DNA from: an uncultured Bacteroidales bacterium
GTDB lineage: Bacteria; Bacteroidota; Bacteroidia; Bacteroidales; P3
DNA length: 64,000 bases
Direction: 5' to 3'
NCBI GenBank assembly: GCA_946183915.1
Contig: CAMHDJ010000002.1
Location: forward strand, 1 to 64,000
Shown here: positions 48,834-63,839 of the stretch, piece after piece
Layout: each line of letters begins with the position of its first letter
Position numbering within the stretch: the first letter of the stretch is position 1
Made by a program: the position numbers and the translations under genes
Notes under the pieces: model-generated
Told to the model about the DNA's origin: nothing
Database searches by the model: none
Seen by the model: the letters and a program-made list of their open reading frames with translations, nothing else

Positions 48834-51194
48834 ATGAACACAAAACAAATCCTCATGCTCTTGGCGGCGCTGCTCTCGCTGGCGGCGCGGGGGCAGTGCG
48901 ACCTGCCGTTGCCCTACACGACCGACCTGACCACGGGCTTCCAGCCGCCGGCAGACCCTCAGCAGGTGGTCTATCCGTGGGTCGAAGGGGTGAATATCGA
49001 GAACTGCTGGACGGGTTACCTCGACTATGGGGGTGATGCTGTTAGCCCTGGCCTCCCCGACTCCCGCTATTCGGCGCGTGGGCGGTTCGGCTATTGGTAT
49101 CCCCTCGACGACGGCACTCTGTGGCTGGAGGAGGCCGAGATTGCCGTCAAGGATACGCATCACAACGGCACGGCCATGCTCATCGCCCCGCGGTTCGTCG
49201 CCACGCCGGCGGCGATGCGGATGACGGTGAAGCTCCAACGTTGGGTCGGTGGAAGCTACACAGGGGATGACCTCTTTTGGGCGTATGTCGACGTGGGGTG
49301 GGTGACCGATGTGTTGCATCCCGGCGCGACGTTCCTCCAGACGGGTACGTTCGCCATCCAGAGCCAGCACCTGCTGGATACCGCCTGGTACGAGTATTGT
49401 CTGCCGGTGCCTGACGCTCCTCCTGCCGGCGGCCGTTTTGCCCTGCGGCTGCGCAGCAAGGCCAACGGTCCGGCGCCGAACCTGGTTCCAATCTATCATT
49501 TTCACTACGAGTTTATGTTCCGGAGGGTGGTGATGGACACGGCCGTGTGCCAGCCGCCCCTGTCGACGGACACGGTCTATGTCGGCGACACCGTCTGCCA
49601 GCACAGCCCCTACCAGGGGTACGGTCTTTTCCTGACGGCCGGCCAGACGGCCGATACCGGCACGCACTCCTTCGTGATGCACAGCTACGAATACCTCGCG
49701 CCCGACTCCTGCCTGTGCCATGTGAAGGTGCTGACGCTGACGGTGCTGCCGTCGGACATCACCTTCCGGCAGGACAGCATCTACCCCGGCGAGGCCTATA
49801 CCTTCGGCGGCCGCGAGCTGACGCTGGCGGGCACCTACGTCGACGACCGCGGGCCGAACGCCTACGGCTGTCCGCAACGGGACTCGCTGGTGCTCAGCAT
49901 CAGGCCCCTGCCGCCGATGCCCTGCGGCGCGGTGATCGAGACGGAGCGCACGGAGTTCTACCTCACGCAGCCGGCGGAGGTGCATCTGTGGACTGAGAGC
50001 GAGGGCACCCGCTACCGGTGGCAGGCCGACAGCCTGGCGGGCGACAGCACACAGCGCGACGCCTACGTGACGCTGCTGCCCGACAGCCAGCAGCGCGTGC
50101 GGCTCGAGGTGGAGCGCATCGACACGGTGAACCACATCTACCGCGGGGCGTCGGTGGACACCTCCTACTACGGCTTCTTCCAGCTGACGGTGCCCGTCGA
50201 GCCGCACACGCGCTATTTGCTCGAGGCGGCGGCCTCCGACCCGGTGGGGCTGACGGTTTACAACCAGACGCCGGCCGACCTGTCGTGGGCCGACAGCCTG
50301 CTGCGGGCCACCTTCTCCACCGGCCAGAACAGCACGGCGGAGCTGATCTTCCATGCCACGGTGCCGCTGCGCCTCTCGCAGCTCAGCCTGCGGCGCTACT
50401 GCCTTGCGGCCGACACGGTGCTCCTGGTGGCCCACAGCATACAGCCTGTGATTGTGGCCGAGGGGGCTGTCCTCTGCCTGGGCGACAGCCTGGTGCTGCG
50501 GGGCGAGCAGACCGACAGCTTCCAGTGGACCTCCACGCCGCCCGATGCCGCCCTCGACAGCCAGCAGGGCAGGGCGGAGGTGACGGTGAGCCCCGTCCGG
50601 ACCACCACCTACTACCTCCTCTGGCCGTCGGGCGAGGTGGCCGACAGCTTGACGGTGCAGGTGCTTCCGCCGCCGCAGATGATGGTGGTGGCCGACCGCG
50701 AGGCGGTGAACCTGGCCGACCCCGTGCTCACGCTCGAGGAGCAGTCGGCGGAGATCGTCCGCTCGCGCTGGACCTTCAGCGACGGCGACCGGGCCGAGGG
50801 GCGGCGGGCAAACCACCTTTTCGCCCTGGCCGACCGCGACAGTGTGTGGGTGCTGGCCGAGGGGTGCAGCGCCGAGGGCTGTTGCGCCGACACGCTGCTG
50901 CGCTTCGCCGTGGCCAACCTCTCGGCGTGGTTCCCCAACGTCTTCACCCCCGGTGCCGACGCCAACAACCGCTTCGGCATGGCGGCATCGGTGGAGGTGG
51001 TGGAATACGAGCTGCTGATCTACAACCGTCACGGCCTGCTGATCTACCACAGCGACGACCCCGCCGCCCCGTGGGACGGCCGGGGCCCCGACGGCAAGCC
51101 CTGCCAGCAGGAGGCCTACACCTACCTCTGCCACTACCGCCTGGCGGGCGACTACCCGCGTCACCAGGTGGGCACGGTGCTCCTGCTGCGGTGA
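48834..51194 (+). CDS. Secreted beta-rich protein with T9SS type B C-terminal domain
   Basis: 786 aa with signal peptide ending AARGQ. Regions of beta-sandwich type (including a PKD/Ig-like RSRWTFSDGDRAEGRRAN around 640-690) lead to a gliding-motility/T9SS type B domain in the last 85 residues: AWFPNVFTPGADANNRFGM, LLIYNRHGLLIYH, PWDGRGPDGKPCQQEAYTY. Same plan as the 972-aa protein at 11641. Probably a surface protein; substrate or partner unknown. Confidence 0.87.
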   Translation: MNTKQILMLLAALLSLAARGQCDLPLPYTTDLTTGFQPPADPQQVVYPWVEGVNIENCWTGYLDYGGDAVSPGLPDSRYSARGRFGYWYPLDDGTLWLEEAEIAVKDTHHNGTAMLIAPRFVATPAAMRMTVKLQRWVGGSYTGDDLFWAYVDVGWVTDVLHPGATFLQTGTFAIQSQHLLDTAWYEYCLPVPDAPPAGGRFALRLRSKANGPAPNLVPIYHFHYEFMFRRVVMDTAVCQPPLSTDTVYVGDTVCQHSPYQGYGLFLTAGQTADTGTHSFVMHSYEYLAPDSCLCHVKVLTLTVLPSDITFRQDSIYPGEAYTFGGRELTLAGTYVDDRGPNAYGCPQRDSLVLSIRPLPPMPCGAVIETERTEFYLTQPAEVHLWTESEGTRYRWQADSLAGDSTQRDAYVTLLPDSQQRVRLEVERIDTVNHIYRGASVDTSYYGFFQLTVPVEPHTRYLLEAAASDPVGLTVYNQTPADLSWADSLLRATFSTGQNSTAELIFHATVPLRLSQLSLRRYCLAADTVLLVAHSIQPVIVAEGAVLCLGDSLVLRGEQTDSFQWTSTPPDAALDSQQGRAEVTVSPVRTTTYYLLWPSGEVADSLTVQVLPPPQMMVVADREAVNLADPVLTLEEQSAEIVRSRWTFSDGDRAEGRRANHLFALADRDSVWVLAEGCSAEGCCADTLLRFAVANLSAWFPNVFTPGADANNRFGMAASVEVVEYELLIYNRHGLLIYHSDDPAAPWDGRGPDGKPCQQEAYTYLCHYRLAGDYPRHQVGTVLLLR

Positions 51195-51237
51195 AAAAGA
51201 GAAACCAATAAAAGAGAGATACAATATGACAGCTACA

Positions 51238-52941
51238 ATGAAAAGACTCCTGTGTGTCGCGCTGGCGCTGCTGACGCTGACGGCCGCGGCGCAGAATGTG
51301 AAGATCCCGAAGGGTGCCAACGTGTTCACCTACCACCAGATCGAGTACGGCGAGCGGAACGACACGTCGGTGATAACGGTGTACCGCGAGGGCGACGTGA
51401 TCACCATCGTCACCCCGCAGCCCGAGGGTAAGCTCATCCCCGGCTATGCCCAGACCGTCACCGAGGTGGACTATGCGCAGGACAGCATCACGGTCAGCGC
51501 CTACTACGACGACTCCGTCTACTTCTACCGCACCGCCTTCTCGCGCAGCGACCTGGAGTGGCGCCGCGACGCGGGCCGCCACATCTGCTCCGTCAACAGC
51601 AACACCTTGGAGTTCGAGATGGACGAGAAGGCGCCCGTCAATGTCAACCCGCTGCCCTACTACGGGCTGACGAAGGGCGTGCTGCGCTCGTTCACACGCA
51701 ATGGGCAGAAACGCCTTGTGCTGGCCAGCGTAGGGACGCGGCGTGCCGCGTCCGCAGTCAATGGCTCGTCGCTTGCGGACGCGGCACGCCGCGTCCCTAC
51801 GATGCGCCGCGTCTCGCCGCGCGAGCTTGACCGCATCATGAAGGAGCGTCTGGTGGTCACCACCCGCATCTTCGACCACGAGCAGATATGCTGGGGCAAG
51901 AAGAATGCCCATATCGACGGCGGCCTGCAGGCTGTGCCCAACGACACGGTGCTGCACTACGCCGGCGGCACCCTCATACTCAAAAAGGTCAAATTGCCCC
52001 GTCTGCCGCACCACTACCAGCACTTCGTGGAGATACACCAGCAGAGCAATGGCGACGCCTACGACCGCACGGGGTCGCTCTTCATCGTCACACCGGGCTT
52101 CTTCGAAGGCATCAACCATCATCCCGACTCGCTGCCCACCTTCGTCGGCCGTGACGGCCAGCGCTACCAGGGCATGATCTCGCAGACAGGCTACGATGCA
52201 CCGCTCGAGCTGGTGCGCTTCTTCACCCCCTTCGGCGTGGGCCACTTCAACGAGCGCATGGCCGGCTACGGCATCGACTGGCGTGACGAGACCTATTACC
52301 GCCAGGAAATCACCGACCTTTATCACTTCGACGACGACGTGGTCATCGGCGCTTGGATAGGCAACTACGACGGCGGCGGTCACATCGTCACCGTCGACAT
52401 CAAGTCGTATCCCAACGACTATACTATTCCCGAGGACAACACGGAGGTATCAGGGCTAGCGCTGCCGTGCTTCAACACCTGCAATGTCCTCGAGATGGCT
52501 GGTCAGAACTACGGCAAACTGTTCGCCACCGACTCGCTGACGGTTATCTTCAAATTATATCCAGAGACGAAATCGGCCAAGCTCCGCTACATCAGCACCG
52601 GCCACGGCGGCTGGGGCGAGGGCGACGAGTTCGTGCCGAAGACCAACACCATCCTTATCGACGGCAAGCCCGCCTTCACCCACACCCCCTGGCGGCAGGA
52701 CTGCGGCTGCTACCGCGACCTCAACCCCGTCAGCGGCAACTTCTGGAACGGCCTCAGCAGCTCCGACTTCTCGCGCAGCGGCTGGTGCCCCGGCACGGCC
52801 ACGCAGCCCGTCTACTTCGACCTCTCGCCCTGGGCCGACGGCCGCGAGCACACCCTCACCGTGGCCATCCCGCAGGGCAAGCCCGTCGAGGGCATGTTCA
52901 GCCACTGGGCCGTCAGCGGCGTGCTCATCGTGGAATATTAG
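51238..52941 (+). CDS. PNGase F-like peptide-N-glycosidase with in-frame REP insertion
   Basis: 567 aa from the ATG at 51238 (MKRLLCVALALLTLTAAAQ signal); an ATG 12 nt upstream is possible. The C-terminal half matches PNGase F-type amidases: LRYISTGHGGWGEGDEF, PWRQDCGCYRDLNPVSGNF, GLSSSDFSRSGWCPGTA and VYFDLSPW. The extra N-terminal domain is as in PNGase F-II-like enzymes. It would release N-glycans from glycoproteins outside the cytoplasm, fitting with the GH2 gene nearby. Residues about 165-190 (GTRRAASAVNGSSLADAARR) are encoded by a 71-bp REP inverted pair and look like an addition between the two domains. Confidence 0.85.
   Translation: MKRLLCVALALLTLTAAAQNVKIPKGANVFTYHQIEYGERNDTSVITVYREGDVITIVTPQPEGKLIPGYAQTVTEVDYAQDSITVSAYYDDSVYFYRTAFSRSDLEWRRDAGRHICSVNSNTLEFEMDEKAPVNVNPLPYYGLTKGVLRSFTRNGQKRLVLASVGTRRAASAVNGSSLADAARRVPTMRRVSPRELDRIMKERLVVTTRIFDHEQICWGKKNAHIDGGLQAVPNDTVLHYAGGTLILKKVKLPRLPHHYQHFVEIHQQSNGDAYDRTGSLFIVTPGFFEGINHHPDSLPTFVGRDGQRYQGMISQTGYDAPLELVRFFTPFGVGHFNERMAGYGIDWRDETYYRQEITDLYHFDDDVVIGAWIGNYDGGGHIVTVDIKSYPNDYTIPEDNTEVSGLALPCFNTCNVLEMAGQNYGKLFATDSLTVIFKLYPETKSAKLRYISTGHGGWGEGDEFVPKTNTILIDGKPAFTHTPWRQDCGCYRDLNPVSGNFWNGLSSSDFSRSGWCPGTATQPVYFDLSPWADGREHTLTVAIPQGKPVEGMFSHWAVSGVLIVEY
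51730..51800. repeat. REP inverted pair (BIME-like) inside a coding sequence
   Basis: Two 27-bp arms, the first starting GTAGGGACGCGGCGTGCCGC, are perfect complements and flank a 17-nt spacer. Each arm is also a palindromic REP core. The element adds no stop codon in the frame used by the PNGase-like gene. Confidence 0.92.
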
Positions 52942-56698: not shown

Positions 56699-56964
56699 AC
56701 CCCTCCAAAACGCCCATGGTTACTAGGTGGCTCCGTGATGACTCCCTGATGACTCCCTGATGACTCTCTTAAAACCAGGGCAAAACCCTTGCCCTGTCAG
56801 CGTTTTGCGAGTTTTCCAGCATGGTTTGCACACTTCCGGAAGGCTAGAGGTCTCGTTCTGAATGGTTTAAATGTGCAAAATAGATCGTGCACGATCTAAT
56901 TTTTTAACCTAAATTTACTTAATTTAGTGGATAGTGGGTAGTGGACAGTGGGTAGCACGTGGGT
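56699..56964 (+). repeat. 266-bp dispersed repeat, copy 2
   Basis: Same order of parts as 20387-20652: three 11-mers (about 56737-56769), hairpin CAGGGCAA/TTGCCCTG, GTGCAC palindrome (56879-56901), AT hairpin, and four GTGGGTA-type heptamers (56927-56954). It starts 16 nt after the receptor stop codon. Confidence 0.9.
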
Positions 56965-57116: not shown

Positions 57117-57146
57117 TTGCCGGTTTAAAAAATAGTTGTATCTTTG
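57117..57146 (+). promoter_or_regulatory. Promoter of the radical SAM/lipoprotein pair
   Basis: TTG (57117-57119), 19-nt spacer, TATCTTTG (57139-57146), 28 nt before the lipoprotein start codon. Confidence 0.78.
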
Positions 57147-57174: not shown

Positions 57175-57558
57175 ATGAAACTGTTAAGAAAACTGCTCAA
57201 GGGCGTGTCGCTGACGGCGGCCATGTTCGTCTTCCAGGCCTGCTACGGCACGGAACCGGATTATTGTGTGAGCGAGATGACCTTCCGTGTGGTGTCTGAC
57301 AAAGACCAGACGCCGCTGCCCGACATCAAGGTGATGGCGCAGCGGCAGAGCGGCTCGGACGACTGCGTGTACAGCTGGAGTCTGGGCGACTATACCGATT
57401 CGAACGGAGTGGCCCGTGTGCAGGTGGACCTTTGGGAGTGTATCGAAGCCGACTACAAGTTCCGTTTCTCGGACGAGCAGTCGCAGTACGAGCTGCTGGA
57501 CACGGTGATCCACGTCGGCGAGCCTGATACTGTCGACATAGTCCTCCACCGCATCTGA
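57175..57558 (+). CDS. Lipoprotein partner of a radical SAM enzyme
   Basis: 127 aa from the ATG at 57175, chosen because it directly precedes KLLRKLLKGVSLTAA, the signal, with lipobox FQAC, and because the promoter lies just upstream of it. The mature part is a small beta-sandwich of transthyretin or CarboxypepD-regulatory type (MTFRVVSDKDQTPLPDIKVM, YTDSNGVARVQVDL, DTVDIVLHRI). From memory it fits the putative-lipoprotein family of the rSAM/lipoprotein system (TIGR04134-like). Its TGA overlaps the radical SAM ATG by one base. It is probably the substrate or partner of that enzyme; the modification is unknown. Confidence 0.82.
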   Translation: MKLLRKLLKGVSLTAAMFVFQACYGTEPDYCVSEMTFRVVSDKDQTPLPDIKVMAQRQSGSDDCVYSWSLGDYTDSNGVARVQVDLWECIEADYKFRFSDEQSQYELLDTVIHVGEPDTVDIVLHRI

Positions 57559-58637
57559 TGACGGGCACACCCATTCGTGATTTCCTGCATCGTCGCTTCC
57601 GCGACATGGAGGTGCGCACCCACGAGCTGAACTACCTCTTCTGGGAGTGCACGACGCGGTGCAACCTGCACTGTCGCCACTGCGGCAGCGACTGCACTGC
57701 GCCGGGCGGCGAGCCCGACATGCCGCTGGAGGACTTCCTGCGGGCCTTCGACACCATCCCGGAGCGGGAGCGCCAGCCGGGCTTCACGGTGGTGGTGACC
57801 GGCGGCGAGCCGCTGCTGCGCCCCGACCTGTGCGAGCTGGGCGTGGCGCTGAAGAAGAGGCATGTGGGCTGGGGCATCGTCAGCAACGGGTGGCTCTACG
57901 ACCGCGACATGCATCGCCGCCTGATGGAGGCGGGCCTGGGTGCCCTCACCATCAGCCTGGACGGCCTGGAGGCCGAGCACGACTGGATGCGGGGTCGCGA
58001 GGGGAGCTACGGCCGCACGCTGGAGGCCATCGCCATCGCCGCGCGCGAGCGGCGCCTCAACTTCGACGTGGTCACCTGCGTCAACCAGCGCAACCTGCCG
58101 CAGCTGCAGGCCATCCACGACCGACTGGCGGCGCTCGGCGTGCCGCAATGGCGCCTGTTCACCATCATCCCCATCGGGCGCGCCGTGGGCCAGCCGGAGC
58201 TGCATCTCACCGACGAACAGTTCTGCCAGTTGATGGACTTCATCGAGGCCAAGCGCGAGCGGCCCGAGAGCCCGATGCGGGTCACCTTCAGCTGCGAGGG
58301 CTACCTGGGGCGCTACGAGCGCCGGGTGAGGCCGAACCCCTACTTCTGCCATGCCGGCATCAACATCGCCTCGGTGCTCATCGACGGCACCATCAGCGCC
58401 TGCCCCAACATCGACCGGCAGGCCTTCGGCCAGGGCAATATCTACAACGACAGCCTGTGGGAGGTGTGGCAGACGCGCTTCGAACCCTTCCGCAACCGTC
58501 GCTGGGCACGTCGTGGCATGTGTCGCGACTGCAAGATGTTCGGCAACTGTCTGGGCGGCGGCATGCACAACTGGCATGGCGACTGCGCCGAGGTGCTCAA
58601 CTGCCACTACCGGAAAACACTCGGCAAAGGAAAATAA
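57558..58637 (+). CDS. Radical SAM/SPASM enzyme of the rSAM/lipoprotein system
   Basis: 359 aa. The 4Fe-4S/SAM motif is CNLHCRHC (Cys35, Cys39, Cys42), followed by VVTGGEPLLRPDL. The C-terminal SPASM region has the expected cysteines: CHAGINIASVLIDG, ISACPNID, then MCRDCKMFGNCLGGGMHNW and a late CHY for auxiliary clusters. Such enzymes modify peptides or proteins, e.g. anaerobic sulfatase maturation or RiPP cross-links. The adjacent lipoprotein, rather than a sulfatase or short RiPP precursor, marks the TIGR04133-like group. It is cytoplasmic, so it would act before lipoprotein export. Confidence 0.88.
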   Translation: MTGTPIRDFLHRRFRDMEVRTHELNYLFWECTTRCNLHCRHCGSDCTAPGGEPDMPLEDFLRAFDTIPERERQPGFTVVVTGGEPLLRPDLCELGVALKKRHVGWGIVSNGWLYDRDMHRRLMEAGLGALTISLDGLEAEHDWMRGREGSYGRTLEAIAIAARERRLNFDVVTCVNQRNLPQLQAIHDRLAALGVPQWRLFTIIPIGRAVGQPELHLTDEQFCQLMDFIEAKRERPESPMRVTFSCEGYLGRYERRVRPNPYFCHAGINIASVLIDGTISACPNIDRQAFGQGNIYNDSLWEVWQTRFEPFRNRRWARRGMCRDCKMFGNCLGGGMHNWHGDCAEVLNCHYRKTLGKGK

Positions 58638-58639
58638 AT

Positions 58640-58670
58640 TTTGCCAGTTTCAAAAAAAGGTGTATCTTTG
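58640..58670 (+). promoter_or_regulatory. rimP operon promoter
   Basis: TTTG (about 58640-58643), 19-nt spacer, TATCTTTG (58663-58670), right after the radical SAM stop codon. Confidence 0.8.
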
Positions 58671-63470: not shown

Positions 63471-63839
63471 ATGAGAACACAAGGTGTGACATACGAAAAA
63501 ACCAAGGCATTTGCTATCGAAGTGATTGCGTTATGCAATGAACTCCGTGACAAGGGTGAGTATGTCATGTCGAAACAAATCCTGAAAGCAGGAACGAGTA
63601 TTGGAGCCAACTACTGTGAGACCCTGGGATCCGAAAGCCCGCAGGACTTTGTCCACAAGCTCTCCATTTCACTAAAGGAAGCCAATGAGACTTACTTCTG
63701 GCTTGACATACTCCACACAAGTGGGTATATTGACACAGATAGGTTCGACACTATGAAAGCCCAGCTTGAAGAAATATACAAAATGATGAACTCCGCCTCA
63801 ATCACAGTCAAAAAACGTAACAACATACTAACGCAATAA
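63471..63839 (+). CDS. Four-helix-bundle protein (S23/IVP-like)
   Basis: 122 aa from the ATG at 63471, which lies just after the left inverted repeat. VTYEKTKAFAIEVIALCNEL, MSKQILKAGTSIGANYCETL, QDFVHKLSISLKEANETYFW and the DTMKAQLEEIYKMMNSASIT helix define the TIGR02436-type four-helix-bundle family, found within 23S rRNA intervening sequences and as free cassettes; function unclear. The right inverted repeat encodes the last residues LTQ and the stop codon. This suggests a small mobile cassette inserted between infB and tRNA-Arg. Confidence 0.88.
   Translation: MRTQGVTYEKTKAFAIEVIALCNELRDKGEYVMSKQILKAGTSIGANYCETLGSESPQDFVHKLSISLKEANETYFWLDILHTSGYIDTDRFDTMKAQLEEIYKMMNSASITVKKRNNILTQ

Follow-up and report, generated by a model that had tools for sequence, protein, structure and literature searches.

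What does a radical SAM/SPASM enzyme do to the lipoprotein that is encoded directly before it, and at which residues does it act? This question is raised by a pair of genes in a stretch of 64,000 nucleotides from an uncultured Bacteroidales bacterium (referred to here as the window). The two families concerned, TIGR04133 for the enzyme and TIGR04134 for the lipoprotein, are catalogued; their models give no function, and no paper naming either of them was found in the literature library searched. An earlier note on this DNA had suggested the lipoprotein's beta-domain as the part that the enzyme modifies before export. Our comparison, which covered about 130 enzyme/lipoprotein pairs overall, points to another part of the protein. 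We propose, with a probability of roughly 0.55, that the lipoprotein is the substrate of the enzyme in the manner of a RiPP precursor and that the Tyr-Gly pair beside its lipid anchor is modified, most likely by excision of tyramine. The features on which this proposal draws are listed in Table 1.

Table 1. Features of the gene pair and its surroundings (positions in the window)
Feature	Position	Strand	Remarks
Promoter-like element	57117..57146	+	Putative; -33 TTG (57117-57119), 19 bp, -7 box TATCTTTG (57139-57146); matches the Bacteroidota-type consensus
Lipoprotein gene	57175..57558	+	127 aa; ATG at 57175, TGA at 57556-57558; TIGR04134-like
Signal peptide, residues 1-22	57175..57240	+	KLLRKLLKGVSLTAAMFVFQA; unusually conserved; proposed recognition leader
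C23-Y24-G25	57241..57249	+	Lipobox cysteine followed by invariant Tyr-Gly; proposed modification site
Predicted beta-sandwich domain, residues 30-124	57262..57546	+	CnaB/transthyretin-like fold; AlphaFold mean pLDDT 88.5
Radical SAM/SPASM enzyme gene	57558..58637	+	359 aa; ATG at 57558-57560; TIGR04133
N-terminal helix, residues 4-22	57567..57623	+	Present in TIGR04133, mostly absent from PlpX-type enzymes; low model confidence
CxxxCxxC radical SAM cluster motif (C35, C39, C42)	57660..57683	+	Invariant in alignment A2
GYLGRYE motif, residues 248-254	58299..58319	+	Related to GYYGPYE of PlpX-type enzymes
SPASM region	58347..58604	+	Invariant C264, C282, C322, C325, C331, C349; Pfam, alignment A2
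Promoter-like box TATCTTTG	58663..58670	+	Before rimP-nusA-infB; marks the end of the unit

The stop codon of the lipoprotein gene and the start codon of the enzyme gene have one base in common. Among the close relatives of the window enzyme (clade A, see below) such coupling goes beyond chance, since 61 of the 69 partners on the same strand end between a 60 nt overlap and a 30 nt gap from a possible enzyme start. The coupled two-gene unit described in the earlier note is thus borne out, and so are the two families that it named. In HMM searches against NCBIfam the enzyme scored 447.4 bits with TIGR04133, above the cut-off of 425, whereas the lipoprotein reached 34.6 bits with TIGR04134 and stayed just below the cut-off of 39.8, although its gene directly adjoins a TIGR04133 enzyme gene, the arrangement typical of the family. 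The enzyme also matches the Radical_SAM and SPASM models of Pfam, and it carries both the CxxxCxxC motif and the SPASM cysteines of radical SAM/SPASM enzymes. As there is a promoter-like element upstream of the pair and a second box of the same kind before rimP, a separate transcription unit for the two genes is plausible from the sequence. Of the claim that the unit has its own promoter, the consensus match stands, and use of this promoter is putative.

Upstream of the pair lie genes for an outer-membrane beta-barrel protein and an ECF sigma factor, downstream the rimP-nusA-infB genes. No sulfatase or peptide exporter gene was present among the neighbours tested (48.8-63.8 kb), as the earlier note had stated. 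A grouping of the enzyme with sulfatase-maturases, which by that note would have spoken against its reading, was not seen: no such family appears among the best 25 NCBIfam matches of the enzyme, and on this ranking and the neighbours tested we rejected that identity. The overall predicted fold does resemble that of anaerobic sulfatase-maturating enzymes (TM 0.70), as it would for any SPASM enzyme.

A TIGR04133 enzyme is present in 54 of the 247 genomes sampled from this order; Parabacteroides distasonis is one cultivable commensal with the pair. In the genome from which the window comes (2.2 Mb, 99.85% complete), contig C29 carries a further TIGR04133 locus, a canonical one, and contig C32 a solitary TIGR04134 lipoprotein. 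The C29 locus consists of three genes, which encode a 184-aa lipoprotein with LMYGVP, a 57-aa mini-lipoprotein (L203, G000:C29:28509-28679; mature part CEKMYGCPEDEITPMYGVPSTEYNDSLVDKP) with two MYGxP motifs, and the enzyme. Within TIGR04133 the window copy falls into a distinct clade, clade A (support 99/99 in the first tree), in which the YG of the partner abuts the lipobox cysteine. A DNA pattern search of the window's genome for a second substrate of the clade-A type gave nothing but a match by chance, which lay in a secreted protein rich in repeats.

For clade A, 80 close relatives of the enzyme were collected by a genome scan. At 75 of these loci there was a partner sharing the signal peptide, and five of them had two partners, so that 80 partners were compared in all, 11 of them encoded on the opposite strand; of the five loci without a pattern match, one is cut by a contig end. 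In the 52 full-length partners the signal peptide and CYG were on average 71% identical versus 28% for the remainder, with the reservation that the search pattern took in the end of the signal peptide and slightly favoured conservation there. In 99.6% of the 1326 pairs the signal peptide and CYG were more identical than the mature part. BamD, an ordinary lipoprotein of the same order, behaved in the opposite way (signal peptide 23%, mature part 42%; signal peptide higher in 3% of pairs); since the BamD set is more divergent, the argument is carried by the internal comparison. The signal peptide and CYG are as conserved as the enzyme itself (69%). Yet 53% of the codons for identical residues differ, and therefore selection acts on the protein and not on the DNA. 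Seven columns are invariant in the 34 full-length partners of alignment A1: F18, F20, Q21, C23, Y24, G25 and G78. The window lipoprotein reads CYGTEP instead of CYGxP, the proline being shifted by one residue.

The adjacent Cys and Tyr are invariant in clade B as well. In clade C the signal peptides show no unusual conservation, and the cysteine is often distant from the YG. Judged from these sequences, the idea that the signal peptide serves as a leader would hold for clades A and B, and not clearly for clade C. The logic of a RiPP-like precursor, with a conserved leader, a small core motif and a variable rest, is found in clade A, and in clade C only the core motif.

Beyond clade A, the partners of TIGR04133 enzymes have no common fold. 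Some are beta-domain proteins, others are coiled coils in which VYGSPE is repeated; the 57-aa lipopeptide is a further type, and there are short proteins whose one to three YG motifs lie centrally or at the C terminus. At 28 of 30 canonical loci there was an ORF with a signal peptide and YGxP, and in one of the other two loci the contig breaks off; the background for YGxP is 0.12 motifs per 1000 residues. Another 20 loci were selected on the enzyme match alone; 18 of these had a partner, and all 18 partners carried ACYGxP. What is constant across the family is thus an exported protein with xYG, usually xYGxP. This short motif can be searched for and also reaches partners that are too short or too divergent for the TIGR04134 model. 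A complete TIGR04133/lipoprotein pair (L185), with TSCYGMPENYY in the lipoprotein, was also found near a DNA invertase gene on plasmid pTS1 of the spirochaete Treponema saccharophilum, suggesting horizontal transfer.

Which reaction could take place at such a motif? PlpX-type spliceases, the family IPR026482 (PMC11002830), excise tyramine at XYG, with MYG and LYG as natural sites (PMC10533398; PMC10373908). For spliced GYG, trapping of the ketone with tetrazine is reported (PMC10533398). An XYG is present in the window lipoprotein in the form of C23-Y24-G25. We take IPR026482 to be TIGR04103, an assignment backed by how a locus on a Nostoc plasmid is annotated: its Nif11 precursor ends in IALYGLPPELF and is accompanied by a TIGR04103 enzyme and, where PlpY would lie, by a 71-aa gene. 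In Bacteroidota, TIGR04103-like enzymes adjoin proteins that end in LLYGTPPVPLYQAPSK (L178) or have six KYGYP repeats (L180). L177 comes from a second species of the same genus as L178 and has the same enzyme and neighbour; its neighbour lacks the motif (TVLYMAHSK). The 214-aa protein with the six repeats (L180:2949-3599) has no Pfam match, adjoins a TIGR03913/TIGR04103-like enzyme and is likely a multi-site precursor.

The trees place TIGR04133 close to these enzymes. In a tree of 53 enzymes, TIGR04133 and the PlpX-type enzymes were split from MftC, TIGR04053, TIGR04347, NirJ and one Paenibacillus enzyme with a support of 98/99; in an earlier tree with longer branches a sister relation of the two reached only 92/71. 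Both trees have few outgroups, long branches and no sulfatase-maturase, and outgroups were taken from plasmids because TIGR04053 and AhbD (TIGR04545) are nearly absent in Bacteroidota. Besides the SPASM subgroup, the two families share the XYG of the substrate, with YGxP also in a TIGR04103 precursor, and, as far as clades A and C are concerned, a similar motif of the form G[YF][YLV]Gx[YF]E. The GYLGRYE motif was dropped as a universal mark, as clade B has EGW[LIV]P at this place, and it gives partial support only. There are clear differences as well. With TIGR04103 the window enzyme scored 127.9 bits, far below the cut-off (725 bits), and its scores with other SPASM families are nearly as high. 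TIGR04133 has a glycine at the fourth cysteine of CX2CX5CX3C and the extra N-terminal helix, and its substrates would be exported lipoproteins, whereas those of PlpX-type enzymes are Nif11 or nitrile-hydratase-leader peptides. No small, RRE-like gene of the PlpY kind lies between or beside the window genes. A PqqD/RRE partner was considered and rejected, the one clear PqqD protein of the window's genome being encoded elsewhere. The GDL motif peptide maturase TIGR03913 falls into the same subgroup of the tree, and its small DUF1843 partners have PYG or LYG near the N terminus; unlike the TIGR04133 partners they show no signal peptide, and their YG is not strict (several have YA).

Coupling, family membership, the constancy of signal peptide and YG, and the kinship to PlpX-type enzymes all emerge from sequence comparison, and on this basis the Tyr-Gly next to the lipobox cysteine is probably the modification site. 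Given this site, we infer excision of tyramine at about even odds. In the cytoplasm, before export, the enzyme would recognise the conserved signal peptide; in clades A and B this peptide would double as the leader. It would then modify Y24-G25 directly after C23, perhaps by cutting a tyrosine fragment from the backbone, and the modified lipoprotein would be exported, lipidated and cleaved as an ordinary lipoprotein. That the enzyme acts on the lipoprotein before export, as the earlier note supposed, thus seems right. One may speculate that the ketoamide so formed, a reactive group close to the membrane, might capture a protease or some other nucleophile. Only tentatively do we suggest that TIGR04133 could be a large, unrecognised splicease family of gut Bacteroidota that excises tyramine beside a lipid anchor, leaves an alpha-keto-beta-amino acid as a warhead and uses a signal peptide as RiPP leader.

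Instead of tyramine excision, the reaction at the same Tyr-Gly could be a crosslink that joins the tyrosine ring to a residue nearby as a cyclophane or an ether. Crosslinking is common among SPASM enzymes, and the nearest solved folds to the predicted enzyme structure (pLDDT 85.6) include the crosslinking maturases SkfB and SuiB; the comparison of predicted folds did not separate the SPASM subfamilies. Crosslink partners could be T, V, S or C and the P after the YG, or, in clade C, the aromatic residue that about two thirds of the motifs have at +7. However, the position that follows YG is variable, with T, V, S, C, A or I, and the glycine is strictly kept, as for splicing, and the kinship of the enzyme is to PlpX-type enzymes. 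We therefore regard a crosslink as unlikely.

Slightly less probable still is that the lipoprotein is not a substrate at all but a partner in export or sensing, that the enzyme acts on something else and that CYG is a sorting signal. In other bacteria the residues following the lipobox cysteine do steer sorting. Against this reading stand the repeats of the YG motif, which 13 of 54 partners at canonical loci have more than once, and its position at the C terminus of some partners. Tandem partner copies speak against it too, as does the motif in partners that are not lipidated: those of L111, L113 and L144 have no lipobox cysteine, and where signal peptidase is likely to cut they read AQYG[VA]P.

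These three partners, together with the remote cysteine of clade C, also make it very improbable that the lipobox cysteine is bonded to the tyrosine next to it, through a thioether or otherwise, invariant neighbours though the two residues are in clades A and B; moreover, the thiol of this cysteine is needed for lipidation.

Least probable is the beta-domain as the target, for which the invariant G78 and the presence of the domain in most partners could be adduced, since this part is the least conserved, is missing from 25 of the 80 clade-A partners and is absent or replaced by unrelated mature parts elsewhere. Foldseek matched the domain model to CnaB2 (E 6.5e-5) and also to transthyretins. 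The clade-A partners without it, among them the types L048 and L053, keep the signal peptide and CYG and have instead an acidic, proline-rich tail, with 38-52 residues from the lipobox cysteine on. Comparison of the predicted proteins thus shows the beta-domain to be dispensable in relatives.

TIGR04133/TIGR04134 is a common and widespread pair of gut bacteria, and the comparison narrows the modification to one residue pair and one predicted mass change, which for excision of tyramine would be a loss of 135.08 Da. If this is true, backbone splicing would take in anchored lipoproteins of gut commensals besides peptide natural products. Scott et al. (Chem 8:2659, 2022) reportedly described ribosomal beta-amino acids as widespread in peptides and proteins; TIGR04133-type enzymes might already be listed there, which would lower the novelty.

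Some further features were noted along the way. A CHU_C type IX secretion cargo protein (window 48834-51194) adjoins a homologue of peptide-N-glycosidase F (51226-52941; PF09112, PF09113), and a 23S rRNA intervening-sequence-type protein (63477-63839; PF05635) is encoded at a place that is not within an rRNA gene. Short intergenic tandem repeats of TGATGACTCCC units lie at 56736-56772 of the window, and intergenic tandem repeats of GATGATGCCTG-like units were found on other contigs of the same genome (L002, 3428-3607; L182, 1873-2151).
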